Shown: one piece after another, positions 46,824 to 63,319 of the stretch
Numbering within the stretch: position 1 is the stretch's first letter
Layout of the letters: the number at the start of each line of letters is the position of its first letter
Source of the DNA: Haloterrigena turkmenica DSM 5511
GTDB taxonomy: Archaea > Halobacteriota > Halobacteria > Halobacteriales > Natrialbaceae
DNA: 64,000 bases
Reading direction: 5' to 3'
NCBI RefSeq assembly: GCF_000025325.1
Contig: NC_013743.1
Location: forward strand, 1,054,001 to 1,118,000
Translations under genes and position numbers: made by a program
The notes under the pieces: generated by a model
The model's database searches: none
Told to the model about the DNA's origin: nothing
Seen by the model: only the letters and a program-made list of their open reading frames with translations

Positions 46824-47109
46824 TCCGTACCCGTGACTTCGCACTCACACCGTATCAACTTGACGTCCTTCCCATGACTTTCGCCGTGGGCGTTCCCTCG
46901 TATTCCCCGTACCGCACGACCGATCGGTGAGCCCTCCAATCGAGTTCCCGATGTCGCCGAGGAACGTGTCGCCGACGACTCGTTCGAGGCCCGATCGAAC
47001 GGCCATCTCACTTATGCCCCTCGCCGCGCGACATGCCACGAGAACGACCCCGCTCGCGAGTCGCGTCGACCCGCGGTCTCCGCCCGCGCACTCGCGAGCC
47101 GACTCCATC

Positions 47110-48885
47110 ATGCCCGACCAGCGCGATACCGACCCGGTCGATTCGATCGCAGCCGACGGGAGCAACGGCGACAGTGTCGGCGGCCGCCTCGAGTCGACGT
47201 TCGCCGGCGCCCGCCGAACGCTCCGCCGACTCCGCGAGACGCTTCGGGGCTCGGAGGTTCGGGTGACGAACTACGATCCGGCGGCACACGGCCCGCTGGT
47301 GACGTTCGACGGAATCGACGGCCTCGAGGAAGTCGACTGCTACTGGGTCGACGCGCCGTTTTCGTTCGTCACGATCGGCCGCGACCGATCCGCGAACGAG
47401 CACCGCTATCACGCCGTCGAGCCGACGCTGCGGGACGACGAGGCGAACCTGCTCGAGACGCTGTTCGAGGACGTCCGCGATCCCCTGCTCTACCGCGAGG
47501 ACGAGCGAAGCGATGCCCCGGAGCCGCGAGCCGCGAGTCGCGAGGACGAGGTCGAGGCGCTCCTGCGGGAGACGATCCGCGAGTACCTCGAGCGCTACGG
47601 CGCCGAGATCGACGCGGCCACGTTCTATCGGCTCTTCTACTACGTCCACCGGAATTTCCGGGGCTACGGGCGCCTCGAGCCGATCATGCACGACCCGCAC
47701 GTCGAGGACATCTCGTGTGACGGCTACGACCTCCCGATCTTCGTCTACCACGACGAGTACGCCGACATCGAGACGAACGTCGCCTTCGGCGCGGACGAAC
47801 TCGACGGCTTCGTCGTGCGCCTCGCCCAGCACTCGGGGCGGCACATCTCCATCGGCGATCCGATGGTCGAGACGACGCTACCCGACGGCTCGCGCGCGGA
47901 ACTGGCGCTGGGCAGAGAGGTAACCCCGCGCGGTTCGGCCTTTACCGTCCGAAAGTACGCCGACGAGCCGTTCACGCCGATCGATCTGCTCGAGTACGGC
48001 ACCTTCAGCGTCGAGCAGTTGGCCTACCTCTGGCTGGCGATCGAGCACAACAAGAGCCTCATCTTCGCCGGCGGGACGGCCTCGGGGAAGACGACGAGCA
48101 TGAACGCCGTCTCGATGTTCATTCCGCCGCGCGCGAAGGTGTTGACCATCGAGGACACCCGCGAACTCCAGCTCTCTCACGACAACTGGCTCTCCTCGGT
48201 CACCCGCGAGCGCATCCACGAGGGAAAAGACGTCACGATGTACGACCTCCTGCGCTCGGCGCTGCGCCACCGTCCGGAGTACATCGTCGTCGGCGAGGTC
48301 CGCGGCGAGGAGGCGATGACCCTCTTTCAGGCGATGAACACCGGCCACACGACCTACTCGACGATGCACGCCGATTCGGTCCAGACGGCGATCAATCGTT
48401 TGGAGAACGAGCCGATCGACGTTCCCCGCCCGATGGTCGGCAGCCTCGACATCCTCTCGGTGCAGACGCTGACCCGCCTCGACGACGGCCGCGTCCGCCG
48501 GAACAAGGTGTTGGCTGAGATCGACGGTATCGACCAGCGGACGGGCGAACTCGACTACTCGACGGCCTACACCTGGGAGGGCGACACCGACACGTTCCGG
48601 TCGTCGGGCAGCGCCGTCCTCGAGGAGATCCGGGACGAGCGCGGCTGGGGCCAGCGCGAGTTGCTCGCCGAACGCGAGCGCCGCGAGCGCTTCCTCGAGT
48701 ACCTGCAGGTGAACGGGATCACCGACTACCGGCGCTTTACCGCACTGGTCAACGAGTACTACGCCGATCGGGAGGGCGTCCTCGAGCGGATCGGTGCGGC
48801 GGACGTCGATGCCGGAACCGAGACCGACTCCGACCGGCCGTCCGGAACCGATACCGACCGACCGGTCGAGACCGACGGGATCTGA
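47110..48885 (+). CDS. Type IV pilus/secretion ATPase (PilB/VirB11 family)
   Basis: A 591-residue motor ATPase for assembly of archaeal type IV pilus-like fibres. The N-terminal domain ends with 'VHRNFRGYGRLEPIMHDPHV' and 'EDISCDGYDLPIFVYHDEY'. The motor domain has Walker A 'GGTASGKTTS' (K327), the Asp box 'TIEDTRELQL', Walker B 'YIVVGEVRGEEA' and His box 'TGHTTYSTMHADS'. The ATG at 47110 precedes the conserved part; the in-frame extension upstream looks non-coding. Its partner membrane gene follows. No pilin gene is seen in the window. Confidence 0.93.
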   Translation: MPDQRDTDPVDSIAADGSNGDSVGGRLESTFAGARRTLRRLRETLRGSEVRVTNYDPAAHGPLVTFDGIDGLEEVDCYWVDAPFSFVTIGRDRSANEHRYHAVEPTLRDDEANLLETLFEDVRDPLLYREDERSDAPEPRAASREDEVEALLRETIREYLERYGAEIDAATFYRLFYYVHRNFRGYGRLEPIMHDPHVEDISCDGYDLPIFVYHDEYADIETNVAFGADELDGFVVRLAQHSGRHISIGDPMVETTLPDGSRAELALGREVTPRGSAFTVRKYADEPFTPIDLLEYGTFSVEQLAYLWLAIEHNKSLIFAGGTASGKTTSMNAVSMFIPPRAKVLTIEDTRELQLSHDNWLSSVTRERIHEGKDVTMYDLLRSALRHRPEYIVVGEVRGEEAMTLFQAMNTGHTTYSTMHADSVQTAINRLENEPIDVPRPMVGSLDILSVQTLTRLDDGRVRRNKVLAEIDGIDQRTGELDYSTAYTWEGDTDTFRSSGSAVLEEIRDERGWGQRELLAERERRERFLEYLQVNGITDYRRFTALVNEYYADREGVLERIGAADVDAGTETDSDRPSGTDTDRPVETDGI

Positions 48886-48890
48886 TCACC

Positions 48891-48965
48891 GTGACTCCGT
48901 CGAACTTCCTGCCGCTCGCGGTCGCCGCGCTCTGTTGTGCGCCGGTCCTGGCTGCCAGATACCAC
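48891..48965 (+). pseudogene. N-terminal remnant of pilC-like gene
   Basis: A GTG five bases after the pilB-like stop opens 'TPSNFLPLAVAALCCAPVLA', a plausible first membrane segment of a PilC protein. This frame then runs into a reading of DNA that, one frame over, codes for the first conserved T2SF helix. Intact archaeal PilC proteins have roughly 100-150 further residues between these points. I read it as the left side of an internal deletion with frame change. Confidence 0.4.
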
Positions 48966-50547
48966 ACCGGTATCGACCGTCGCCTTCCTCTACGCCCTCT
49001 CGCGCAGCGGCATGGCCTTCCCGAAGGTAATCCGGGTCGTCGCCGCCCACGAGGCGACCTACGGCGAGGCCGCCGAGGAGTTCGACGTCGCGGTCCGAAA
49101 CATGGACACCTTCGGCGTCGACGTAGTCACCGCACTCCAGACGATGGGGCGGCGCTCGCCGAGCCCCCAGTTCCGCGAGTTCAGCGAAAACCTGGTTAGC
49201 GTCCTCCAGAGCGGCCACAGCCTCTTGGATTTCCTCGAGCGCCAGTATCGCGATTACCAGGAGGAAGCCGAGTCCCACCAGGAGCGGACCCTCGGACTGC
49301 TCTCGACGCTCGCCGAAGCCTACGTGACGGTGCTGGTCGCGGGTCCGCTCTTTCTCATCACGATCCTCGTCGTCATCGGGATCGCCGTCGGCGACACGCT
49401 CGAGCCGCTGCGGGCGCTGATCTACCTCATCCTGCCCATTGGCAACCTCGCGTTCGTGATCTATCTGGGCGTCGTCACCGACAAGCTGACGCCCGGCTCG
49501 GCGGCAACGGACTCGAGCGAAGCTCCGTCGCTGGATCTCCCGGGCGACATTGCGCGTGAGGCCCGACCCGACGGCGGAGCCGCCGGTAGCGGCGCCGTCG
49601 GTGCCGACAGTCACCCGAACGTCAAACGCCTCCGGTACTACCGGCGGCTCCGCGGTCTGCGAGAACGGTTCGGAAACCCCGTCAGGACGCTGCTCGAGCG
49701 CCCGACGCTCTCGCTCGCGATCACCGTTCCGATCGCCCTCGCGGGCGTGCTGTGGCAGTTCCCGGCGGCGCTCGAGGGAGGGTTCGACGTCGCGGCGATC
49801 GACGACGCGATCGCGGTGGGGCTGCTGGTCGTCCTGACCGGTTTCGCGATCCCGTACGAGGGGCACCGTCGCCGGATCGACGCCGTTGAGGCGGCCGTCC
49901 CGGACCTGCTCGACCGACTCGCGAGCGTCAACGAGGCCGGCATGTCGCTGGTCTCGGCGGTCGACTACGTCCGCGGCTCTGAGCTGGGGCCGCTCGGCGC
50001 CGAACTCGATCGCGTCTGGGCGGACGTCCAGTGGGGCGCCGACCTCCAGACCGCGTTCGCCCGACTCGAGCGGCGGGTGCGAACCCGGACGACCGCCCGC
50101 GTCGTGACCCTGCTCACCGAGGCGATGAACGCGAGCGGGAACCTCGCGACCGTGCTCCGGATCGCCGCCCGGCAGGCCGCGGCCGACCGGCGCCTCGAGC
50201 GCGAGCGAAAGCAGGCGATGGTCGAGTACACCATCGTCGTCTACGTCTCGTATCTGGTCTTCCTGTTTATCATCGCGGTGCTCGCGGCGTCTCTACTGCC
50301 AAACCTGCCCGCAGAAGGGGCCGATACCGCGACCGCCACCGGTAGCTCCGCCGTCGGCGGACTCGGCGGCTTCTCGGCGTCCGACCGGGCGACCTACGAC
50401 ACGCTGTTCTACCACGCGACGCTCGTTCAGGGCCTGCTGTCGGGGCTGATCGCCGGCCAGTTGAGTACGGGCGATGTCAGGAGCGGGGCGAAACACGCCG
50501 CCGTCATGGTCGGGCTGTCGGTCCTCCTCTTCGCCGTCATCGTCTGA
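48937..50547 (+). CDS. PilC/TadC-like pilus membrane platform, N-terminus disrupted
   Basis: A 536-residue membrane protein with two T2SF domains. The first begins at 'STVAFLYALSRSGMAFPKVI' (residue 13 on) and ends in helices 'VTVLVAGPLFLITILVVIGI'; the second contains 'DLLDRLASVNEAGMSLVSAV' and 'TLLTEAMNASGNLATVLRIA', then C-terminal helices ending 'AAVMVGLSVLLFAVIV'. The start is uncertain: GTG at 48937 gives a short odd leader, and ATG at 49012 would cut the domain. The usual membrane region before the first T2SF domain is missing. It may still work as a short form or be inactive. Confidence 0.7.
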   Translation: MRRSWLPDTTPVSTVAFLYALSRSGMAFPKVIRVVAAHEATYGEAAEEFDVAVRNMDTFGVDVVTALQTMGRRSPSPQFREFSENLVSVLQSGHSLLDFLERQYRDYQEEAESHQERTLGLLSTLAEAYVTVLVAGPLFLITILVVIGIAVGDTLEPLRALIYLILPIGNLAFVIYLGVVTDKLTPGSAATDSSEAPSLDLPGDIAREARPDGGAAGSGAVGADSHPNVKRLRYYRRLRGLRERFGNPVRTLLERPTLSLAITVPIALAGVLWQFPAALEGGFDVAAIDDAIAVGLLVVLTGFAIPYEGHRRRIDAVEAAVPDLLDRLASVNEAGMSLVSAVDYVRGSELGPLGAELDRVWADVQWGADLQTAFARLERRVRTRTTARVVTLLTEAMNASGNLATVLRIAARQAAADRRLERERKQAMVEYTIVVYVSYLVFLFIIAVLAASLLPNLPAEGADTATATGSSAVGGLGGFSASDRATYDTLFYHATLVQGLLSGLIAGQLSTGDVRSGAKHAAVMVGLSVLLFAVIV

Positions 50548-51528: not shown

Positions 51529-51831
51529 CCCGAACACGATCGGCCGAGAACGGCCGGTTCAGCCGTCTACCGACCGTTTATGACCGGCGAATAAACGCTC
51601 TCCGGCGACGTTTCGGCGAGACAACTAGTAGTTATCATCGCTCGAGACCGGTCGGAGACACCAGTTCGCGAAATCGGTTATAACTGGCTTTTGTCCCCAT
51701 ATGAGTCAAATTTCCGTCTGTCTATCGATCATTTTCCATTCGGAAAATAGAATGAAACTATAATACGGCTCCTAACTCCGTGAATGGGCGACGGGTTTTA
51801 TGCCATCCTCGTCACCAGCGCCGAATGCGCT
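51529..51831. other. Intergenic with hairpin and TATA box
   Basis: Contains a 7-bp hairpin 'ATTTTCC' / 'GGAAAAT' (51731-51748) of unknown role and 'GTTTTATGCC' (51795-51804), a TATA box about 33 bases before the ATG at 51832. Composition is AT-richer than the neighbours. No gene is seen. Confidence 0.5.
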
Positions 51832-52788
51832 ATGACGCGACTCACGCGACGCTCGACGCTGCAGCTCGCAGGCGCATCGCTTGTCGCAGCTACCGTCCCC
51901 GCAGCCGCGTCCGCATCCGAAGACGGCTGGACGACCGTCGAGACCCCCATCGACAGCACGCTCCATGACGTCGCGTACACGGCGACGAACGCCCACGCGG
52001 TCGCCGAGGGTGGCACCGTCCTCGAGCGAACCGACGCCGGCTGGGAGGTCGTCCTGCAGGGCGGCCCGACCGGCAACGGGAACGACCTCTATGGGGTCGA
52101 TACCACCGACGACGGCGAACGGCTCTGGATCGTCGGCGCCAGCGGCGCGATCGGCGAGTACGACGTGACGACGGGCAACCTCGTCGACCGCTCCGCGCCG
52201 AACGACTACACGGCCAACTTCAACGACATCGCCGTCACCGGGCCGGCGGGCGACGCGGACGTCTACGTCGCCGACGACTCCGGCGCGATCCACTACAGCT
52301 TCCAGAACGGCGAGGAAGGTACCTGGGAGTACGTGGTCCCCGGCAGCGGCTCCAGCCTCAAGGCCATCGAGTTCTTCGACGACCGCGCGGGCCACGCCAT
52401 CGACACCAACGGCCGCGTCTACGCCACCGACGACGGCGTCACGTGGAATCCGATCGGCATCGAGGACGCCGACGTCACGTTCTACGGTCTCGACAGCGAC
52501 GCCGCCGACGACGTCACCGTCAGCGGCGGTAACGCCTCGATCTTCGAGTACGACGGTTCGCAATGGGTTCCCGAGAGCCTCGGCGACGCCGACCTCTTCG
52601 ACATCGAGACCGACGGTGACGAGGGGTACACCGTCGGGAGCGGCGGCGTCATCTTCGAACTCGACGGCGGCGAGTGGAGCCTGAATCAGACGCCCGTCGG
52701 CGAGAACCTGCAGGCCGTGGCCGACGGCCCCGTCGCCATCGCCGTCGGCTCCGGCGGCACCGTCCTCGAGCGCTCGAATAGCCACTGA
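51832..52788 (+). CDS. Tat-exported beta-propeller-like protein
   Basis: A 318-residue secreted protein. The signal 'TRRSTLQLAGASLVAATVPA' carries the twin arginines and ends in 'ASASE'. The mature part has about seven repeats of the kind 'LHDVAYTATNAHAVAEGGTV', 'LYGVDTTDDGERLWIVGASG', 'LKAIEFFDDRAGHAIDTNGR' and 'LFDIETDGDEGYTVGSGGVI', the WD40/YVTN/BNR style of blade. It begins and ends with a similar 'GGTVLER' strand, as expected for a closed propeller. The ligand is unknown. The ATG at 51832 fits the TATA spacing; an upstream start would bury the signal. Confidence 0.85.
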   Translation: MTRLTRRSTLQLAGASLVAATVPAAASASEDGWTTVETPIDSTLHDVAYTATNAHAVAEGGTVLERTDAGWEVVLQGGPTGNGNDLYGVDTTDDGERLWIVGASGAIGEYDVTTGNLVDRSAPNDYTANFNDIAVTGPAGDADVYVADDSGAIHYSFQNGEEGTWEYVVPGSGSSLKAIEFFDDRAGHAIDTNGRVYATDDGVTWNPIGIEDADVTFYGLDSDAADDVTVSGGNASIFEYDGSQWVPESLGDADLFDIETDGDEGYTVGSGGVIFELDGGEWSLNQTPVGENLQAVADGPVAIAVGSGGTVLERSNSH

Positions 52789-53091
52789 ACGCCACTGCAG
52801 ACCTGATCGCATGACGGCATCACGATCAATATGGAATTCGTTTCAGTGGCACCTGTAGTCTCGGCCGATCGACCCACTCTCCGCTGCTCCCCTGGTTTCG
52901 TTTTCGCTGTCGGTCCTCCTCCCGGTCCCTCGCCGTTCCGTTGGGCGCGTACTCGAGTGTAGACCCTCGTCTCCTCGAGTCGACCCACGAGTCGATTCGA
53001 TTCGTCCGCTCGTCCACTGCGTGGGACGACGCTCACGCACTCATTTCGTAGTACACGGTAGCGACTCTCGAGATTATATCACTCTAGAATT

Positions 53092-53135
53092 AATTCATGA
53101 ACATTGTTAATAAGATTTGTTGGCTTTCATGAATT
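53092..53135. promoter_or_regulatory. Duplicated TTCATGAA palindrome
   Basis: The 8-base palindrome 'TTCATGAA' occurs at 53094-53101 and 53126-53133, within 'AATTCATGAA' and its inverse 'TTCATGAATT'. Centres are 32 bases apart, about three helical turns, placing both on one DNA face, 55-90 bases upstream of the operon TATA box. This is the usual shape of a paired dimer-binding operator. Confidence 0.45.
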
Positions 53136-53180
53136 CGGAATTCAGGGTTATTAGGGCCTCTAGGCAGCTATCTGCCGTAG

Positions 53181-53190
53181 ACTATAAGTA
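53181..53190 (+). promoter_or_regulatory. TATA box of the tubulin-like operon
   Basis: 'ACTATAAGTA' is centred about 42 bases before the ATG at 53228, which predicts a leader of about 15 bases. No later promoter is seen inside the three-gene run. Confidence 0.6.
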
Positions 53191-53227
53191 ATGCGAACGG
53201 AATTCTCAGACGAATCACGACGATCAT

Positions 53228-56200
53228 ATGAATTTGCCAGAACGAATATTTTCAGTCGGGGGAGCCGGAAAACAGATCGCGTTGGAGTTGCTCGAGTCGG
53301 AGTGGGTGCTTCGCGAGATTCTGCAGCCGCGACCGAATCCGCAGTCCGTGCGCGTAACGATCCTCGATACGGCCGAAGAAGAGGAGAACTCGGATCGGGA
53401 GCGAATCGCCGAGATCCGCGAACGGGTCGCGACGCTGAAATCGGAGCTTCGGGAGACCGGAACCGGTCGCCCCGGCGACGTCTCGATCGAGTACAAGATG
53501 ATCACGCGGAACATCCAGCTCAACGACCAGAACGATCTGATCGGTGAGACGGCGGTTCCGCGGATCGCGGCCGGGAACGGGATGGACGAAGACGACTGGT
53601 GGGTCGAGGAACAGCACATCAACGAGAACCTCGACTTTGCGACCGGCGTCGTCCGGAAGCGAGGGCTCGGGAAGGCCATGTACTACAAGGCCTACGCGGA
53701 GGACGACGAACTGTCGACCTACATCGACCTCCCGGACAAGGGGAAGGTCGCCGTGCTCGCCGGACTCGGCGGCGGAACCGGGTCGGGAATCGTCATCGAT
53801 CTGGCGCGCCACCTCCAGAAGAAACAGCGCACCGCGGAGATCACGCTGTTCGGTATCCTCCCGAACCACACCGAGGGGATCCGAGAGAACGCCAACGCCT
53901 TCGCCGCCCTCTCGGAGCTCGAGTACCTCAACCTGATCGACGAACCCGCGTTCAAGGATCGCGTCCTCCTGCCGATCGATCCGACCGGATTCGACGGTAA
54001 GGGCGGGAACAAGATCCAGAACGGGCAGCTGTTACAGGAGTTCGACGAAGCGATCGTCTACCTGATCGCCGCCTACTACAACACCGTCGGCACCGAGGAT
54101 CCGTTCGCGGACTCGCCGACGTACGCGCCGTTCACGATCGGGATCCCCCAGATCCTCCGGTACAACGTCGAAGCGATCAACGAGGGACGGACTGCCCTTC
54201 GCGAGATCCTCTCGGCCAAGGAGGAAGCCGTGCAGGCCGAGCGCGACATCTACACGCAGATCGAACGGTTCCTCGACAACCACTACGACGGACCCAGCGG
54301 CGAGGGCCTCCGGGACCTCGACCGCGCGGATCTGAACGAGCGGTTCGACGAGCTCCGTTCGCTGCTCGACTTCGAACTGTTCAACGAACTCGAGTACGAG
54401 TCGGTCTCGATCTTCTCGGAGATCATCTCGGACGCCGAAAAGGAGAGCGAGGACATCTCCGAGCGGATCGACATCATTTCGGGGTCGCTCCGCGCCGTCG
54501 ACACCGCCGGCCAGCAGGCCGGGCGGTTCGTCGACAACATCGACGAGAACCTCGCCGAAGCGCTCGAAGCGGACCTGAAGGCGATCGTCCAGCGCCACCG
54601 ACTGCTCGTCCAGAAGCAGTCGATCGACGACAGCCGCGTCAGGGACGCGGTCGAGTACCTCATCAACAACGACGACGGCAGCGGCAACCCCGGCGTGAAA
54701 CTCAACCGCCTCGAGACGCAGCTCTCCGATATCTCCGACCAGCGAGCCCGACTCGAGGACGAACTCGAGGAGACCGTCGAGGAACTCGAGCGACTCGAGG
54801 AGGAGCAGGCCGAGGAGATCGATCGGAAGGTCCGCGACTGGGAACGCGACGTGACCCAGACGCTCGAGCAGTACCAGGCGGTCGACGTCGAGGCCATCCG
54901 CGGCGAACTCTCGGCGCTGACGCGCGAACTCGAGCAGTTCGCGTCGGAGGTCGTCAACGCCCGGAACGACACCGACGTCGATCAGGTTCCGACCCAGGAG
55001 ATCACTCAGCAACTCGACGACATCGAGACCGAACTCGACCGCGTCGGGATCGACTTCCACGAACAGCGCAGCGACATCGAAACGTCGATAGCGGCCCTCA
55101 AGGAGACGCGGAAGGCGGCCCTAACGATGAACACCGAGGCGGGGACCATCGAAAAGCTCACGCCGTGGTCCGGAAAGACCGAGCAGGCGAAGGAGGAGGC
55201 TCACCGTAACTTCCGCGTCCAGAAGAACAAGCTCGACGAGCGAGGCGTGTTCAGCGTCGGTCCGCCGGGTTCCGCGTTCAGCGCGGAGGTCGAGTACGAC
55301 GACGGCGCGATCCTCGACGAGCTGCAGGCGCGAACGCGCGAACTCGAGGACAACATCGTCGACGAACTCGCCCACCGGCTCGAGTCGTTCGGCGCGGACC
55401 GCCGCCGCGAACTCGAATCGGAGCTCGACCACGGTGCCGACTTCGGCCGCCTTCGGGAGATCGCACGCGAGGCGTTCAAAGCCGAAATCGGCGGCACCGA
55501 CGACGTCCGGGAGCGCAAGGCGGAACTCGAAGACGAGCTCGAGGAACTCGAGCGAGAGTACGAGACCTACGAGGCGACGGTCGACCTCTTCGAGGAACTC
55601 AACCAGCGCCGCGAGGCGTACGCGAATCGCATCGCCGAGTTCAACCGGAAGCGCAACGAGTACGACGCGGAAACGTCGACCCGCTCGGTCGCGACCGAGC
55701 GCGACGAGTCGGTGTACGTCAAGAACATCAAGCCCAACGACGTCTTCCGGGCGACCGGCGACGAGGGGATCGGCGACAGCGACCTGTTCAACAGCCGCGA
55801 GGAGAACCAGCGGGTCCACAGCACCCTCGATGATCTCGTCGAGAACGTCTTCAACGAGCAGTACTCCGGGATCAAGAAGCGGAGCTTCAGCAAGGGCCGA
55901 CAGCGGTACAACGATATCAAGGTCCGCGTCGGCGTGTTGAGTCAGGCCGTCCATCAGATCGATCCGGACGCCCTCGACTTCGAGAACCAGTTCAACAGCG
56001 CGTTCGATCTCGGTGCGAGCGGAAACCGCGTCGAGAATCCGTACACGACCTGGCAGCACGATATCGGCGACAGCTGGGACATCGGCGTGAGCGCGTTCAT
56101 CGACGGCATCTTCCTCGACAACCTGCGGAAGATGGTTCAGGCAGACGGCTACCGCTCCGGCTACGAGAAGCGCTGGTCCGAACTGGGCGACGACATCCTC

Positions 56201-56467
56201 GTTCACCACAATCACGGGCTTGACGAGGGGTACTACGTCCGACGGAACGAGATACTCAACATGGAGAGCGACGACGACGTCGGCTTCTACCTTCAGGACG
56301 AACCCGAGATCGTTCAGGGGCTGTTGGACGAGTACGTCGACGTCGTTTCCGTGACCGGTGACGAGGACGGGGGCGACGACGGCACCGATACCGACACCGA
56401 CGACCCCGTCGACGAACGGGCAACGGCGGACGATCGGACCTACGAGTTCAGCGGTGGGGTGCAATGA
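53228..56467 (+). CDS. Tubulin/FtsZ-signature protein with long coiled coils
   Basis: 1079 residues. The N-terminal domain has the features of tubulin-like (Tubulin_2) proteins: a start 'RIFSVGGAGKQIALELL' for nucleotide binding and the T4 signature 'GGLGGGTGSGIVIDL', with 'GGGTGSG' at 181-187, then 'LFGILPNHTEGIRENANAFA'. After about 330 comes a long, very charged helical region with strong coiled coil ('RLEDELEETVEELERLEEEQ' about 500-560; 'LEDELEELEREYETYEATVD' about 765-785). The C-terminal part is globular ('WQHDIGDSWDIGVSAFIDGI', 'HHNHGLDEGYYVRR') and ends in an acidic tail. No membrane helix. Probably a GTP-binding, possibly filament-forming, cytoplasmic partner of the next two genes. 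Confidence 0.8.
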   Translation: MNLPERIFSVGGAGKQIALELLESEWVLREILQPRPNPQSVRVTILDTAEEEENSDRERIAEIRERVATLKSELRETGTGRPGDVSIEYKMITRNIQLNDQNDLIGETAVPRIAAGNGMDEDDWWVEEQHINENLDFATGVVRKRGLGKAMYYKAYAEDDELSTYIDLPDKGKVAVLAGLGGGTGSGIVIDLARHLQKKQRTAEITLFGILPNHTEGIRENANAFAALSELEYLNLIDEPAFKDRVLLPIDPTGFDGKGGNKIQNGQLLQEFDEAIVYLIAAYYNTVGTEDPFADSPTYAPFTIGIPQILRYNVEAINEGRTALREILSAKEEAVQAERDIYTQIERFLDNHYDGPSGEGLRDLDRADLNERFDELRSLLDFELFNELEYESVSIFSEIISDAEKESEDISERIDIISGSLRAVDTAGQQAGRFVDNIDENLAEALEADLKAIVQRHRLLVQKQSIDDSRVRDAVEYLINNDDGSGNPGVKLNRLETQLSDISDQRARLEDELEETVEELERLEEEQAEEIDRKVRDWERDVTQTLEQYQAVDVEAIRGELSALTRELEQFASEVVNARNDTDVDQVPTQEITQQLDDIETELDRVGIDFHEQRSDIETSIAALKETRKAALTMNTEAGTIEKLTPWSGKTEQAKEEAHRNFRVQKNKLDERGVFSVGPPGSAFSAEVEYDDGAILDELQARTRELEDNIVDELAHRLESFGADRRRELESELDHGADFGRLREIAREAFKAEIGGTDDVRERKAELEDELEELEREYETYEATVDLFEELNQRREAYANRIAEFNRKRNEYDAETSTRSVATERDESVYVKNIKPNDVFRATGDEGIGDSDLFNSREENQRVHSTLDDLVENVFNEQYSGIKKRSFSKGRQRYNDIKVRVGVLSQAVHQIDPDALDFENQFNSAFDLGASGNRVENPYTTWQHDIGDSWDIGVSAFIDGIFLDNLRKMVQADGYRSGYEKRWSELGDDILVHHNHGLDEGYYVRRNEILNMESDDDVGFYLQDEPEIVQGLLDEYVDVVSVTGDEDGGDDGTDTDTDDPVDERATADDRTYEFSGGVQ

Positions 56468-57921
56468 TCACTACCGCGGTCACCGCGCTCAATCGACACC
56501 GGGAGAAGGTCTCGCTGGTCGGCTACTTCGTCGTCATGCTCGGGTTGACGCTCCCGCTGGTGACGATGCTGGGGTCGGCCTACGAGGAGGGGAAGCTCAC
56601 GCGGTCGCTGATCGACCTCCACCTCCTCGTCGACGCGATCGATCTCGAGGGGGTGAGCGTCTTCCTTCTGGGGATCTTTATCGGGTTACTGATCCTGTTG
56701 ACGATCGATCCGAAGAAGCGCTGGCAGGGGTATCTCCTCTGGATCGGACTGGTCATTTCGTTGCTCGGCCTCTGGACGATCGGACTGTTCATTCCGAACA
56801 TCGACTTCACGTCGACGACGAACCTCAGTTGGCTCGCGGTCGGGACCCTGATCGGACTCGTTCTCGGCGGCGGACGGAAGCTGCTTCGGACCCAGACCGC
56901 ACAGACCCTCGAGTTCCGCAGCGCTGCGAGGGGGATCTATCTGATAGTCGCCCTGCTCATCGTCAGTGCGTTGATCGAAACGCACCTCGTCTATCCGACG
57001 ATCTTCGAGATCACGGCCGACGGCGTCTCGATCGTCTCTTCCGAGAGTTCTGACGTCTCGATCGAGACCGACGGTCTCGCCCGGAACGCGGTGCTGAGCG
57101 GGATCTTTATCGTCACAGTCAGACGGTTCATCCAGTACGACTCCGAGGAGGACTTCTTCGTTCTCGGACCGCGCGGTTCCGGGAAGAGCCTCTTCCTTAT
57201 CGGCGCGTACCTCGAGGCCTTGAACCGCGGCCGGAACGACGAAGCGACCAAGCAGACGCCGCTGCAGCCGAGCCAGGAACTTATGAAGATGGTCGAAAAC
57301 CTCGACCAACGGTCCGAGGGCTGGCTCATCGAGGCGACCGGTCGCGGCGAGATCAAGGACCTCGCGTTCCAGTACGTTCACGGTTCGACGTTCCCGAAGA
57401 ACGTGAAGGTCTCGAGCATCGACTACGCGGGCGAGTACCTGAGCCGACTCCCCGACGCGTTGTCCGGCGCCGTCACCGAGGACGACGCCGATAACACGTT
57501 GTTACGGCTCTCGGACGGCGTCGAAGACGCGGACACGTTGATCCTGCTGGTCGACCTCGAGCGGTACGCCAACGGCGAATCGCTCGACATCTCGGAGTAC
57601 TTTAGCATCCTCCAGGCGGCCGACGACAAAGGGGTCTTCATCGTGGCGACGAAGGCCGACGTCTTCGTCGAGGACTTCCAGAAGGAACAGGGGATCGAAC
57701 CCCACCTCGCGTTCGACGAGTTCAAGGACTTCGTCACCCAGCGGCTCCGCCAGAGCGAACAGATCGACAGCCTCATTCGTCAGACCGCCGGCGCCGAAAT
57801 TCACCCCGTCTACTATCAGACGACGGAGAACGAGAACGGCGACCGCATTCCGATGCGCGACGGGACCGGCTCGGTCATGACGATCGGATTCGACCGCCTG
57901 CTCAACGAACTCGGACGGTGA
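56464..57921 (+). CDS. Polytopic membrane P-loop GTPase
   Basis: 485 residues. About five to six membrane helices (roughly 16-38, 63-83, 88-110, 123-138, 156-176 and a weak one near 208-222) are followed by a cytoplasmic GTPase domain. Its G1 loop is 'GPRGSGKS' (235-242), the G3-like motif is 'DYAGE' (320-324) and the G4-like motif is 'TKAD' (396-399). The pattern is that of TRAFAC-type, double-GTPase-associated proteins rather than an ABC or AAA ATPase. The ATG overlaps the stop of the tubulin-like gene (ATGA), so the two are coupled. It likely anchors or switches the system at the membrane. Confidence 0.82.
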   Translation: MITTAVTALNRHREKVSLVGYFVVMLGLTLPLVTMLGSAYEEGKLTRSLIDLHLLVDAIDLEGVSVFLLGIFIGLLILLTIDPKKRWQGYLLWIGLVISLLGLWTIGLFIPNIDFTSTTNLSWLAVGTLIGLVLGGGRKLLRTQTAQTLEFRSAARGIYLIVALLIVSALIETHLVYPTIFEITADGVSIVSSESSDVSIETDGLARNAVLSGIFIVTVRRFIQYDSEEDFFVLGPRGSGKSLFLIGAYLEALNRGRNDEATKQTPLQPSQELMKMVENLDQRSEGWLIEATGRGEIKDLAFQYVHGSTFPKNVKVSSIDYAGEYLSRLPDALSGAVTEDDADNTLLRLSDGVEDADTLILLVDLERYANGESLDISEYFSILQAADDKGVFIVATKADVFVEDFQKEQGIEPHLAFDEFKDFVTQRLRQSEQIDSLIRQTAGAEIHPVYYQTTENENGDRIPMRDGTGSVMTIGFDRLLNELGR

Positions 57922-57926
57922 AACAC

Positions 57927-60155
57927 ATGCCAGAGCTAACGATATACGATTCACACGGAAAACCCTACGGAGACAGTGGGAGAGGGCGTTCGAACGATCG
58001 GATCGAGGAGTTCTTCTTCGGCGGCGTCAAGCTGTACCTCGACGCCGGCTCCCGAACGGAACTGGTCGTCTTCTTCCGCGCTCGAGAATCGAACGTCGGT
58101 CGCGCCGAACAGTTCTACGCCGTGTACACCACGCGGAACACGCGAAACCTGTTCGAGAACTTCCGGTCGGAGCTCCGCCAGCGGGTCGAGAGCGAGTACG
58201 GAATGTCGATCGAGACGTCGTCCGACGACGTCCGGGTGTACGAGGCCCTCGGCGGTCGGAACGACTCCGTCCCCGGCTCGGAGTTCGACCACTCCGTCGT
58301 CTCGAACCTGCTGCAGTCGGGGAAACGGCTGCGGTTCGGCGTGTCGTCCGCGAGCGGTGCACTGGCCCTCTGCTCGAAGTACCTTCAGGGATCGGCAAAC
58401 CGGGTCGCAATCGCGGACAACACGTCGATCGACGCCCTCGAGAGCTGCAATCTGGCGATCGAAGTCGGGAACCACCGCGGCCTCGAGCCGCTCGGTGAGA
58501 CGAGCCGCCTGATGGACGAGCAGCGCCGGAACATGGAGGGTCAGTTGATCAACGAGAAGGTGACGACGATCAAACAGGAAATCGACGACCTCCGGACGAA
58601 GACCAGCAAGAGCGACGAACAGATCCGAAACCGGCTCAAACGACAGATATCGATCTTCGAGACGCCACCGCCGCCGTCCAGTACCGGCGGTCGGTTCGAC
58701 GCGTTGCCGAATCTGAGTCGTCCCCAGAAGCTCGCCGGGGGCGTGGTCGTTCTCGTAGTTCTGATCGCGCTCGTTTCGGTCGCGACCGCAGGACTGCTGG
58801 GAGAACCCGACGCGCTCGCAGATGCGCTCGGCTTTAACGATGACGACGTGGACGAACCGGAGGCCGCTCTCGAGAGCGTTACCGTGGCGGGAGAGGAGAT
58901 AGCGAACTTCGACGAGCAACAGAACGCCACGCTCTCCGAGGGCGAGTTGCACGTCGCCGGCAAGACGAATGGGGATGGGGACGCGGTACGGATCACGTTC
59001 ATCCCCGACGACGGCGGCGGGAATGCGACCATCGAGCCCGACATCGGAGACGACGACTCGTTCGACGCAACGCTGACCGACCTCGAGCCCGGCAGCGGCA
59101 AGCTGCGCGTCGAAGTAGCGACGGACGACGGCGAGTTCGAGCCGGAAACCAGCAAGTCGGTACGGCTCAACGTCGAGAGCGAGGCGGACGCTCCGACTCT
59201 CGAGGACGTTATGGTCGGCGACAACTCGTTCGACGACCTCGAAGCCACTGAAAACGCAGCGGTGACGCTGTCGGACGGTGAGTTGGTCATCAGCGGAACG
59301 ACGAATCGGGAGGCCGTCGTGGTCTCGTTCGATCCCGAGGATGGAGACGACCGAACCAACGACTCGAGTGACGTCGAGAACGGGTCGTTCGACGTCGTGC
59401 TGTCCGGACTCGAGCCCGGAAGTGGCGAACTGCTCATCGAGGCGGGCTCGGCGACCGACGGCGAGTTCGAATCGGAAATCAACGAATCGGTGACGCTCGA
59501 ACTCGAGCCCGAACCCGCTCTCGAGACCGAATCGGTCGGCGACGCGTCGTTCGCCGACCTCGAAGCGGGTGAAAACGCAGGGGTGACGCTGTCGGACGGA
59601 AAGTTGACTATCGAAGGGTCGACGAATCAGGAGAGCGTCGAGGTCTCGTTCGAACCCGAGGACGGGAGCGAGACCTCCTCCAATACGACGGACGTTAGCG
59701 ACGGTTCGTTTACAGTCACGCTGTCCGACCTCGAGCCCGGCAGTGGCGAACTCCTCGTCGAAGCAGGGTCGAACGACGGCGAGTTCGAGTCGGAAGTCAA
59801 CGAGTCGGCGACGATCGTACTCGAGCCAGAACCCACTCTCGAGGACGTTATGGTGGGCGACAAACGGTTCGACGAACTCGATGAGAACGAGAACGTCACG
59901 GTCTCGGACGGCGAGTTGACTATCGAGGGCTCGACGAATCAGGAGAGCGTCGAGGTCTCGTTCGAACCCGAGGACGGGAGCGAGACTGTCTCCAACACGA
60001 CGAATGTCGGCGACGGCTCGTTCACCGTCACGCTCTCCGGACTCGAGTCCGGCAGCGGTGAACTCCTCGTCAAGACCGGATTCGACGACGAAACTGACGA
60101 GGCCGAAGTGGAACGTCGCGCGGCGATTCGGCTCGAGTCGAACGGCTCGAACTGA
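57927..60155 (+). CDS. Single-pass membrane protein with four extracellular repeats
   Basis: 742 residues. The N-terminal 230 residues are a cytoplasmic domain ('ELVVFFRARESNVGRAEQFY', 'VYEALGGRNDSVPGSEFDHS', 'GVSSASGALALCSKYL') with a following charged helix ('LINEKVTTIKQEIDDLRTKT'). One membrane helix lies at about 268-292 ('GGVVVLVVLIALVSVATAGL'). Outside are four beta-rich repeats starting near 315, 425, 532 and 638 ('ESVTVAGEE', 'EDVMVGDNSF', 'ETESVGDASF', 'EDVMVGDKRF'), each with 'DLEPGSGEL'-type turns and many N-glycosylation sequons. There is no signal peptide; the helix acts as anchor. It starts 5 bases after the GTPase stop. A sensor or adhesin for the system is inferred. Confidence 0.8.
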   Translation: MPELTIYDSHGKPYGDSGRGRSNDRIEEFFFGGVKLYLDAGSRTELVVFFRARESNVGRAEQFYAVYTTRNTRNLFENFRSELRQRVESEYGMSIETSSDDVRVYEALGGRNDSVPGSEFDHSVVSNLLQSGKRLRFGVSSASGALALCSKYLQGSANRVAIADNTSIDALESCNLAIEVGNHRGLEPLGETSRLMDEQRRNMEGQLINEKVTTIKQEIDDLRTKTSKSDEQIRNRLKRQISIFETPPPPSSTGGRFDALPNLSRPQKLAGGVVVLVVLIALVSVATAGLLGEPDALADALGFNDDDVDEPEAALESVTVAGEEIANFDEQQNATLSEGELHVAGKTNGDGDAVRITFIPDDGGGNATIEPDIGDDDSFDATLTDLEPGSGKLRVEVATDDGEFEPETSKSVRLNVESEADAPTLEDVMVGDNSFDDLEATENAAVTLSDGELVISGTTNREAVVVSFDPEDGDDRTNDSSDVENGSFDVVLSGLEPGSGELLIEAGSATDGEFESEINESVTLELEPEPALETESVGDASFADLEAGENAGVTLSDGKLTIEGSTNQESVEVSFEPEDGSETSSNTTDVSDGSFTVTLSDLEPGSGELLVEAGSNDGEFESEVNESATIVLEPEPTLEDVMVGDKRFDELDENENVTVSDGELTIEGSTNQESVEVSFEPEDGSETVSNTTNVGDGSFTVTLSGLESGSGELLVKTGFDDETDEAEVERRAAIRLESNGSN
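59593..59986 (+). repeat. Near-identical coding repeats in the ectodomain
   Basis: The DNA for repeats 3 and 4 has a 56-base stretch that is identical (59619-59674 and 59931-59986) and flanks that differ by few bases. Third positions are conserved too, which points to recent duplication or gene conversion rather than selection on protein alone. Confidence 0.8.
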
Positions 60156-60257
60156 TCGATTACCGATGGCGGCTATTTTTCACGCGGAATTAGATGAGTT
60201 CAGATGAGTCGGTTCGTGTCAGTCCCTCACACGCCGGCGCGAAGAAAAAGGAAGAGT

Positions 60258-60287: not shown

Positions 60288-60358
60288 GCGCGGATGGTCT
60301 AGTGGTAGGACCTGAGCCTTCCAAGCTCATGGCCCGGGTTCAAATCCCGGTCCGCGCA
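60288..60358 (+). tRNA. tRNA-Gly (anticodon TCC)
   Basis: 71 bases fold as a cloverleaf: acceptor stem 'GCGCGGA' with 'TCCGCGC', D-arm around 'AGTGGTAGGAC', anticodon stem 'TGAGC'/'GCTCA' with loop 'CTTCCAA' (anticodon TCC), and T-arm 'CCGGG'/'CCCGG' with loop 'TTCAAAT'. The discriminator base is A; CCA is not encoded. No intron. The boundary just after it is a sharp drop in GC content, so it is a candidate integration site. Confidence 0.96.
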
Positions 60359-61636
60359 TTTTTGCTGCGAGCAACTTCACGAGCAGCAGAGATCGTACCG
60401 AGGATACTGACTCAAAATTCTTGTTGATGCTCCAGCACTATCCTTGAGTAGGAGATGGAAGACCATGTTTATCGTAAAATGCATTTCATAATGTTCGTTA
60501 CAGTTGAAAAACCGCCCGAAAGGAGCTATATTCCGGTGAATTAACTAAGATATCCCTACTTCGTAAGCCATCCTATCTTCGCACCAATATTCAATAGAAG
60601 GATTCGTCAATCGACGAAAATAGGGAGCCAGGTTTTTATAATCATTAGAATATGATTGGGCGAATACTAGTAATATATACAGTAGCTATAATATTCGGCC
60701 AGAATTCGCCTAGGAGGCGAATGATGGAGCTAAGTACGCTGTCTTGCTTCTGGAGGAGGATCAATTTTCAGTTATCTATATTAACCATCAAATCATAACT
60801 AAGTATACCCATACTATATGCGGGTGAATTCTTCCCGAATGTTACGACGATTGTCGATTAAATATGTTGTCAGTATTTGGGGGTAGCTGAAATATCGGAC
60901 ATTTGCTAAACATCAGTACTTATCGTCTATAGCATATAAATAACGGCTCTATTTTCGGTTTTTGTGCTGAATCCCGACCTCATATCGATACAGCGGCGTC
61001 TGGAGATGTTTATTCCATCGACGAGAAACACTGAGGGTCTGAATTACGGTTCTCAAGTGATTCACGTACAAATTGTTCTATATACTCGGGCGTAGCCGCC
61101 GAGTAGAGCCGTATAGAGCGATCTTGTCCGTCTCGGCCTGATGGCAGCAGATACTCATCGCATGATCATTCGGTACTGTTTTTATCGAATGCAGCGCAGG
61201 CCGGGAGATTGCGTCAGTGGACTGGATATCGCATTCGTACCAGTTGTAGATAATACTTTGATATAATATGTGTATTTCTCATATTGTGTTACACAGAGAT
61301 AGGCAAGAAGAACGAATCGAATGTCGCCTACGTAAGCTGGTGCGGTGTCCATCTCGATCTGCAGAATTCAAACCGAACAGTCACCGTCGTTCTCACAGAA
61401 TTCAGAGAGAGCGATTGGTTTTCGTTGATCGCCTTCAGCGAGTCCAGCGACACGAACGGCACGACCTCGTCGATCAGGTATCCCCAGCGAGTGCGAAGAC
61501 GAAACCAGTGGTCTCGCGTTCGCTTCTCGGGGAGTTGACAGCGTCCTCACGGGCTAGCCCTTCGCAGTCGACCGGTTCTGTGATCGGTCAATCCATTCTC
61601 GACGGTATTACGTCGGTCCTCAAGAAGCGGAGGCTA
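60359..61636. other. AT-rich stretch without a supported gene
   Basis: About 1.28 kb of markedly lower GC than the rest of the window, with many stop codons in all frames up to about 61280 and several TATA-like runs (for example near 60670-60690). No frame has a recognisable family. A GC-rich patch at 61390-61620 may be decayed coding DNA on the minus strand, unidentified. I see no clear copy of the tRNA 3' end that would mark an attachment site. Confidence 0.6.
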
Positions 61637-63319
61637 CTAATCCACTCGTTCCGTGGGAGGAGTGCTCTCCGAAGACGAGTCGTACGTGGTGCCGTCGGTA
61701 CCGTCCTGAGTCGAGGTCAGATCGATTCCCTTCCGCCTCGCGTCGAACTTCGAAAGGCCATAGACGACGCCAACGAGGAGAAGAGCACACGCTGGCAAAG
61801 CCGCTATTGGACTGGTGCCGAAGAACCCGTACGATACGTAGAACAGAATCGAGATGATTGCGACGGTTGCGGCGTAGTAGCTCTGCGTACGAACGTGTGC
61901 AATGAGGTCCGTCCCGGTGAACGTCGAGGAGAGAACGGTCGTGTCTGAGATCGGCGACGTGTGATCGCCGAAGACCGCTCCGGAAAACACTGCGCCGACG
62001 ACGACGGAGGTGGAGCCGAACCCGCCGGTGAGTTCGAACGCGACCGGAATGGCGGTCGGGGTCAGGATTCCCATCGTCGCCCACGATGACCCCATGGTAA
62101 AGGACATGACTGCCGCAACTAAAAAGACGAGCGCGGGGAAGATGCCGGGAGAGAGGACGCTCTCGACCGAACTAGCGACGTAGTTCCCGGTCCCGAGCGC
62201 GTTGGCGACGGTTCCGATCGTCCACGCTAAAACGAGGATCGTTACGGCAGTCAACATGAGCCCGAACCCCTCGAGGATCGCGTCGATACTTTCGTCGAGA
62301 TCACAGAGATCATACGCGAGCCCGACCACCATCGCCGTCATCACCATCATGAACGACCCCCACATGAGGGCACTCGTCCACGCGCCGTCGCCCGCGATAG
62401 TGACCATCTCTTCGATAAAGGTCGTGATTTCGAGCGCGAATAGCGGCTCGAGCACGGGTTGTCCGTCGTACCCGGTCCAGAACGCGCCCCCGATGGTGAC
62501 GGTGAGTAACATCAATATCGGGAGGAGGAAGGTTCGGAGCATCGGCCGGGTCGCGTTCGGTTCACTGAGGCTTTCGTTCATGTCTTGCAGGGGGTCAGCA
62601 TCGGGGGCACTGACTGCGCCGGTCGTCTGCGCTCGATACTCGGCGTCGAGCATCTCACCGTAGTCCCGCTGCGTGATAACGATAATACCGACCATCACGA
62701 TGGAGAGGATGGCATATGCGTTGTAGGGGATCGACTGAAGGTAGACGGTGAACACGTCCGGCGCCTGAGCGGCGCCCTCCGATTCGATGTTGCTGAACCC
62801 TTCGTTGATCATCGACAGCTGGAACGCGACCCAGCTCGAAATACCGATTGTCGCGACGGGTGCAGTCGTCGAGTCGACGATGTACGATAGTTTCTCGCGA
62901 GAGATCCGAAGTCGATCCGACGCTTCGCGCATCGTATTTCCGACGATCGCTGTGTTCGCGTAATCGTCGAAGAAAAGTCCCATCCCGAGTATCCACGTCA
63001 TCAAGCCTATCTTTCGCCGGGATTCGAGTCGCTCGACGGCCCAGTTCTGGACGGCGATAGCGCCGCCGAGTCGCCAGATGAGGGCGACACCCGAACCGAG
63101 GAGAAGCGTGAACACCAGTATCTGAGCGTGGAAGCCGTCGTCGGCGATGATCGCCTCTATCAGCCAATCGAAAGACTGGGCGATCCCGAAACTACCAGTA
63201 TAAATGATTCCGCCCGCCCAGATGCCGACGAATAGCGAGGGGATAACGCGTTTCGTTGCGATTGCTAACACGATCGCCAGCAATGGCGGTCCTATCGATA
63301 ATATCCCGAACTCGGACAT
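61637..63319 (-). CDS. NhaC-family Na+/H+ antiporter
   Basis: A 560-residue membrane antiporter with about 11-12 helices. The NhaC hallmarks are 'GLFFDDYANTAIVGNTMRE' and 'FGDHTSPISDTTVLSSTFTG', with 'SSWATMGILTPTAIPVAFEL' between. A loop of about 60 polar residues in the middle (near 225-270) faces the cytoplasm, and the C-terminal tail is Ser/Thr/Asp-rich. It exchanges Na+ for H+ or a related amino acid/solute; relatives near aminotransferases may move amino acids. A 'GTTTATC' TATA box 28 bases upstream gives a leaderless start at 63319. Confidence 0.93.
   Translation of the reverse strand: MSEFGILSIGPPLLAIVLAIATKRVIPSLFVGIWAGGIIYTGSFGIAQSFDWLIEAIIADDGFHAQILVFTLLLGSGVALIWRLGGAIAVQNWAVERLESRRKIGLMTWILGMGLFFDDYANTAIVGNTMREASDRLRISREKLSYIVDSTTAPVATIGISSWVAFQLSMINEGFSNIESEGAAQAPDVFTVYLQSIPYNAYAILSIVMVGIIVITQRDYGEMLDAEYRAQTTGAVSAPDADPLQDMNESLSEPNATRPMLRTFLLPILMLLTVTIGGAFWTGYDGQPVLEPLFALEITTFIEEMVTIAGDGAWTSALMWGSFMMVMTAMVVGLAYDLCDLDESIDAILEGFGLMLTAVTILVLAWTIGTVANALGTGNYVASSVESVLSPGIFPALVFLVAAVMSFTMGSSWATMGILTPTAIPVAFELTGGFGSTSVVVGAVFSGAVFGDHTSPISDTTVLSSTFTGTDLIAHVRTQSYYAATVAIISILFYVSYGFFGTSPIAALPACALLLVGVVYGLSKFDARRKGIDLTSTQDGTDGTTYDSSSESTPPTERVD

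Follow-up and report, generated by a model that had tools for sequence, protein, structure and literature searches.

The window, the whole stretch of 64,000 nucleotides analysed here from a haloarchaeal genome of 5.44 Mb, carries three consecutive genes (T1, T2 and T3), which we read, with a probability of roughly 0.5, as a compact FtsZl1 (Tubulin_2) module of archaea that is orthologous to the Huta_2051 locus and works as an outside-in signalling unit from T3 through T2 to T1. The variable ectodomain of T3 would meet a ligand or surface partner outside the cell, and its conserved cytosolic domain would regulate T2, the membrane GTPase encoded next to it and a switch of DO-GTPase-like type. 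This GTPase would in turn control recruitment or assembly of T1, predicted to bind GTP and equipped with long coiled coils, on the cytosolic side of the cell membrane, and T1 would reorganise the membrane or surface machinery. We infer the signalling from T3 to T2 from constant adjacency, congruent divergence and an ectodomain swap, and likewise infer the control of T1 by T2, the assembly of T1 and the output. The three genes are arranged as follows:

53228..56467, plus strand: T1, FtsZl1/Tubulin_2 protein of 1079 aa, open reading frame confirmed at these coordinates
56464..57921, plus strand: T2, membrane GTPase of 485 aa, open reading frame confirmed at these coordinates
57927..60155, plus strand: T3, single-pass receptor-like protein of 742 aa, ATG start

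An earlier note on this DNA had described a three-gene system of a tubulin-like protein, a membrane GTPase and a repeat-ectodomain protein, and this observation was confirmed as real, whereas its interpretation was supported in part. The coupled operon that it proposed is borne out by the 4-base T1/T2 overlap (ATGA) and the 5-base T2/T3 spacing, counted from the ATG at 57927; this start is backed by homologues, and the alternative GTG at 57918 would overlap the T2 stop. A TATAAG box-like motif lies at window positions 53183-53188, 40 bases 5′ of the T1 ATG, and is a possible operon promoter.

T1 consists of the following regions:

residues ~1-330, N-terminal: tubulin-like domain
residues 181-187 (53768..53788, plus strand): T4 signature loop GGGTGSG, its glycines invariant in 16 homologues
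residues ~440-820: coiled coils
residues ~830-1040: conserved C-terminal region

The proposed tubulin-superfamily identity of T1 was upheld by this loop and by matches to Tubulin_2 (PF13809) at 45.1 bits and to Tubulin (PF00091) at 36.3 bits, above the respective cut-offs of 27 and 33; the Tubulin_2 match recurred in 16 of 16 T1 homologues. When a profile of the first 331 residues was compared with solved structures (PDB), TubZ, FtsZ and tubulins were among the matches listed (best E 4e-8), and hhalign of T1 against the genome's own FtsZ/CetZ gave a probability of 96% (E 5e-9) over an aligned span of only T4-H5. At the level of profile comparison, T1 is thereby shown to be a tubulin-superfamily member of the FtsZl1/Tubulin_2 family. 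Since the host genome encodes five further tubulin-superfamily proteins, FtsZ-like ones included, T1 is additional to the division machinery. A second Tubulin_2 match in the genome was considered as a second cassette and rejected, being a CetZ-like protein (PF00091, 107.9 bits).

T1 shares with FtsZ, CetZ and TubZ the T4 loop of the superfamily and its flanking strands and helices, but it carries ~700 extra residues and lacks a detectable T7 motif or FtsZ_C/tubulin_C domain. The conserved T7 catalytic motif (NxDxx[DE]) was not detected across 19 T1 homologues, and FtsZ_C was not matched in T1 by profile search. Because T7 is not detectable, a GTP-driven T1 polymer is unproven. T1 may possibly form no polymer, its tubulin-like domain having lost assembly and serving as a hinge, gated by GTP, on a coiled-coil scaffold of SMC/Rad50-like type, a reading that we regard as rather doubtful. 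The undetected T7 motif is in line with it, as is an alignment that ends at H5, Makarova and Koonin's 2010 paper (PMC2875224) already describing the structural elements of FtsZl1 after H5 as not identifiable; so is the extensive coiled coil, with SMC/Rad50-type matches over residues ~367-828 and long helices in the AlphaFold model. However, T7 could persist in a diverged form, and according to the same paper the characterised tubulin-superfamily members all form filaments. The AlphaFold model of T1, built from an alignment of four sequences, reached a pLDDT of 42 and returned no fold match at E <= 0.001; its low confidence is probably due to the few sequences and does not speak against the fold. 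The C-terminal domain of FtsZl1 proteins is described as mostly alpha-helical, and in the conserved region ~830-1040 of T1 the model has a pLDDT below 35.

T2 has four hydrophobic or transmembrane segments within residues 15-181, followed by a G domain (~205-485) with G1 (GPRGSGKS at 235), G3 (DYAGE at 320) and G4 (ATKAD at 395) motifs, in agreement with the membrane GTPase predicted earlier; the three motifs are kept, with small changes, in the compact homologues. DO-GTPases have a conserved glutamate in Walker B/G3, and T2 has DYAGE, but it scored 13.9 bits against the DO-GTPase2 Pfam profile, under the cut-off of 27, and the same sub-threshold match was obtained for 9 of 14 T2 family members. 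T2 shares the DxAGE motif with those archaeal DO-GTPase2 proteins whose scores exceed the cut-off, and a profile comparison between the two gave 95.6% (E 1e-8; three template sequences, 83 columns). T2 thus appears DO-GTPase-like and related to the DO-GTPases, membership not being claimed.

The third protein is organised as follows:

57927..58721, plus strand, residues 1-265: conserved cytosolic domain of T3 (T3-N), model pLDDT 65.5
58743..58799, plus strand, residues 273-291: transmembrane segment
58800..60152, plus strand: acidic, fast-evolving ectodomain of about four ~107-residue repeats

This layout matches the earlier description, in which the protein crosses the membrane once and has a domain in the cytosol and four repeats outside, and TRF detected 3.2 copies of 321 bp in the repeat DNA. 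The repeats of the window copy gave no FNIII match above the cut-off, and T3-N matched no known family. The T3-N structure model (pTM 0.56) found no fold match at E <= 0.001; several of its weak matches were PAS/GAF proteins and a few were GTPase-regulator complexes, which is a hint only. T3-N as GAP1 was not supported, hhalign against the GAP1-like protein of an archaeal DO-GTPase system giving 0.1%.

Relative to H. salina, dN/dS rises from 0.08 for T1 and 0.12 for T2 to 0.21 for T3-N and 0.63 for the T3 ectodomain, a value below 1 that relaxed constraint would fit as well as diversification. Across homologues the ectodomain extends from about 22 to 451 residues beyond the transmembrane segment, and since it has shrunk to ~22-50 residues at two loci (L042 and L039), ligand sensing by T3 would not be universal.

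The strongest single evidence on T3 comes from its neighbours. In two genomes (G068 and G021), T3 is directly followed by a gene whose product combines a kinase-like domain with a transmembrane segment and an ectodomain. At L043:2951-7099 the transmembrane segment and ectodomain of T3 and of the adjacent kinase-like protein are 67% identical over 373 aa (E 6e-140), and at L045:5290-9056 they are 50% identical over 319 aa; at both loci the cytosolic domains of the two proteins are unrelated. Because the transmembrane segment and ectodomain are common to both proteins, T3 resembles a receptor whose cytosolic module can be exchanged. The catalytic loop of the kinase-like neighbour appears degenerate by eye, and the protein may be a pseudokinase.

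Among the order's 195 genomes, 8 carry a compact T1. In each of these eight, T2 and T3 come next on that strand, the intergenic distances being -4 to 62 bases, so that the genes stay together as the earlier note had asked to be checked, and uncorrelated separate occurrence was not borne out. Twelve compact loci share this order and strand, one of them from a methanogen (Methanohalobium), whose T1 and T2 are 42% and 40% identical to those of the window; the identical gene set was found in Salinadaptatus, in Natrarchaeobius and on a Methanohalobium plasmid. Co-occurrence of T1 and T2 gave a hypergeometric P of about 1e-12, with genomes counted without phylogenetic correction, and pairwise distances are strongly correlated among T1, T2 and T3-N (r 0.95-0.975; Mantel 0/5000). 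That three unrelated genes are neighbours by chance is vanishingly improbable: no supporting point was found, and the order and overlaps kept across families and in a methanogen, the co-divergence and the block-wise presence and absence already refute it. T2-T3 pairs occur without T1 in two genomes (G179 and G025), one 99% and the other 89% complete:

L053:337-3010: T2-T3 pair without T1
L054:8075-11242: T2-T3 pair without T1

Since such pairs exist, the output of T2 need not be T1, and the distribution of the genes indicates that the GTPase-receptor pair can stand alone. A short contig of G021 bears a second T1-like gene (L046:3931-5613), which is shortened to 560 aa and shows 43% identity across the first ~320 residues.

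Within Haloterrigena the cassette is carried by 4 of 6 genomes, and the remaining two retain the neighbourhood with no trace of T1-T3. The difference corresponds to a block of ~7.4 kb that is present or absent as a unit beside tRNA-Gly:

52773..60239, no strand: present/absent block, absent in 2/6 Haloterrigena genomes
60288..60358, plus strand: tRNA-Gly(TCC), just right of the block, 48 bp past the resumed homology

In G199, which has the empty site, homology breaks off at window position 52772 and restarts at 60240, with ~155 bp in between; in G195 the match on the left extends only as far as 51526. Gain and loss of the block are both possible, and no integrase or boundary repeat was identified at it. 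The tRNA-Gly(TCC) region (window 60288-61637; L060 and L061) looks like an integration hot spot, and plasmid-borne copies of the cassette were found. Partial copies of the tRNA 3′ end were observed downstream of tRNA-Gly(TCC) in cassette-less genomes. The window also has a low-GC stretch of ~0.50 over 60-62 kb.

A defence role would likewise agree with the patchy distribution, the carriage on plasmids and the fast-evolving ectodomain. In an anti-virus or inter-microbial conflict system, T3 would recognise an invader or neighbour, T2 would set a threshold and T1, as an assembling effector, would damage or wall off the membrane, in line with the proposal of Kaur et al. for DO-GTPase systems (PMC7159879). 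We consider this unlikely, while giving it serious weight. It accords with the patchy distribution (8/195 genomes), the present/absent block by a tRNA gene, the plasmid copies, the fast ectodomain and a weak match of PADLOC mad8 to T2 in 5 of 14 members. Kaur et al. described tubulin, DO-GTPase and repeat-protein systems as conflict systems in 2020, and the window cassette resembles these DO-GTPase/GAP1-N2 systems in its tubulin-like protein with a coiled-coil or helical tail, its DxAGE membrane GTPase and its repeat-bearing component. Distant relatives on megaplasmids of Haloplanus rubicundus (L058) and Halorubrum sp. BOL3-1 (L059) encode a Tubulin_2 protein, T2-related membrane proteins, a T3-like protein, Hsp70 and vWA, with GrpE in L058, as in Kaur's GTPase-centric systems; judged by gene content, these extended haloarchaeal FtsZl1 loci resemble the systems of Kaur et al. 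more closely than does the compact form of the window. In contrast, the window cassette has one GTPase, no confirmed FNIII component and no match to GAP1, the defining component, and no effector or toxin domain was recognised in the cassette proteins. No cassette relatives were found in IMG/VR contigs or phage records, which is uninformative either way.

Immediately around the window cassette lie a gene for a beta-propeller, tRNA-Gly and an antiporter gene. The propeller gene (window 51784-52788) encodes a secreted, HVO_0234/YCF48-like protein, with an overlapping antisense open reading frame of similar length at 51772-52812; its membership of the block was rejected, as it is kept in G199 without the cassette. 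About 2.7 kb upstream of the cassette lies an archaeal type IV pilus pair (window 46927-50547) of a PilB3-type ATPase and a T2SSF/PilC-like gene. A pilus link was dropped, because cassettes in other genomes lack this pair beside them and because the upstream neighbourhood is still there at the G199 empty site. Secreted PQQ-type beta-propeller genes lie by several other cassettes, one of them fused to a gene for a T3-like protein:

L004:15285-16586
L005:15206-16540
L042:4068-5888
L044:3253-5955
L045:1844-4486
L058:15896-19450

By our count there are roughly 4-5 PQQ beta-propeller genes per genome in G033 and G129, so their placement beside the cassette by chance seems unlikely in these two genomes. 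A distant T3-like protein on a Haloplanus plasmid has a different ectodomain, namely one such PQQ beta-propeller fused to it; several cassettes have no beta-propeller neighbour. A beta-propeller is a possible extracellular partner of the cassette.

Such propellers beside or fused to T3-like proteins would also suit a cytoskeleton for shape or surface machinery (membrane remodelling, pili, adhesion), in which T3 is a structural S-layer anchor, not a ligand sensor. The Methanohalobium T3 homologue is annotated PGF-pre-PGF, a surface-protein module, and Makarova and Koonin (PMC2875224) make a context argument in this direction, noting the archaeal GTPases of FtsZl1 operons as membrane-associated and predicting membrane remodelling. 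In Synechocystis, mutation of the distant Tubulin_2 gene sll0445 impairs phototaxis and Sll0445 binds pilus assembly proteins (PMC9880817), the single experimental lead that was found for the wider family and one that, by analogy, would favour a surface-machinery role. Sll0445-Sll0447 (Tubulin_2, FtsA-like and DivIC-like) resemble the window cassette as a small gene cluster with a Tubulin_2 protein, which there contacts surface pilus proteins; however, the partners are not homologous as described, and the phenotypes are confined to phototaxis and photosystems. We judge this alternative distinctly improbable: the ectodomain swap with the kinase-like protein fits signalling better than an S-layer anchor, the pilus genes of the window are unlinked to the cassette elsewhere, and a housekeeping cytoskeleton is excluded by absence from most haloarchaea and from two genomes of the same genus.

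The outside-in signalling module proposed here belongs, by its sequence relationships, to a family that genome analysis had already predicted in 2010 and that is largely untested. The earlier note knew of no experimentally described system of this composition, but the composition itself was not undescribed: Makarova and Koonin (PMC2875224) founded FtsZl1 on Huta_2051 of Halorhabdus utahensis (1051 aa, coiled coil at 445-781), a T1 ortholog in an operon with the same three genes, and Kaur et al. (PMC7159879) describe related systems. At that locus three kinase genes and three hypothetical genes were reported, and we read the latter as T1-T3. T1 is a full-length ortholog of Huta_2051, with 56% identity to the T1 of the H. 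utahensis locus L040 (1052 aa); that protein lies at the expected Huta_2051 position, with T2 then T3 directly downstream and kinase-like genes on the flanks. T1 shows the N-terminal FtsZ-like domain with a GGGTG[ST]G loop and the extended central coiled coil of FtsZl1 proteins, and T2 is an adjacent P-loop GTPase with a TKxD-type motif (TKAD), DxxG and 4 transmembrane segments; coiled-coil architecture, downstream T2 and T3 and membrane association of the GTPase are the same as for Huta_2051. In contrast to FtsZl1/Huta_2051, no protein kinase, vWA or OmpA gene adjoins the window copy. Kinase-like genes are present at L040, L043, L045 and L005 and vWA at L058/L059, and a vWA or kinase gene in FtsZl1 operons is frequent, not obligatory. 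The receptor nature of T3 and its ectodomain exchange do not figure in the available part of the 2010 description. New here are the order and strand kept in 12 loci, the T2-T3 pairs without T1, the block-wise presence and absence, the fast T3 ectodomain and the ectodomain sharing with a kinase-like receptor.

Genome sequences brought FtsZl1/Tubulin_2 to light in 2010, and the family extends over bacteria and archaea; no functional study of the compact archaeal clade was found in the literature searched. Tentatively, and with less confidence than for the signalling unit itself, the cassette could represent a mobile three-gene archaeal pathway in which a receptor that swaps its ectodomain with adjacent kinase-like receptors acts via a membrane GTPase on a tubulin-superfamily polymer, and would then be minimal prokaryotic outside-in cytoskeletal signalling. 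The compact three-gene form, its removable block in Haloterrigena and a definable receptor partner make Tubulin_2 function and polymerisation directly testable, and the receptor evidence together with the empty site offers a good experimental entry point.
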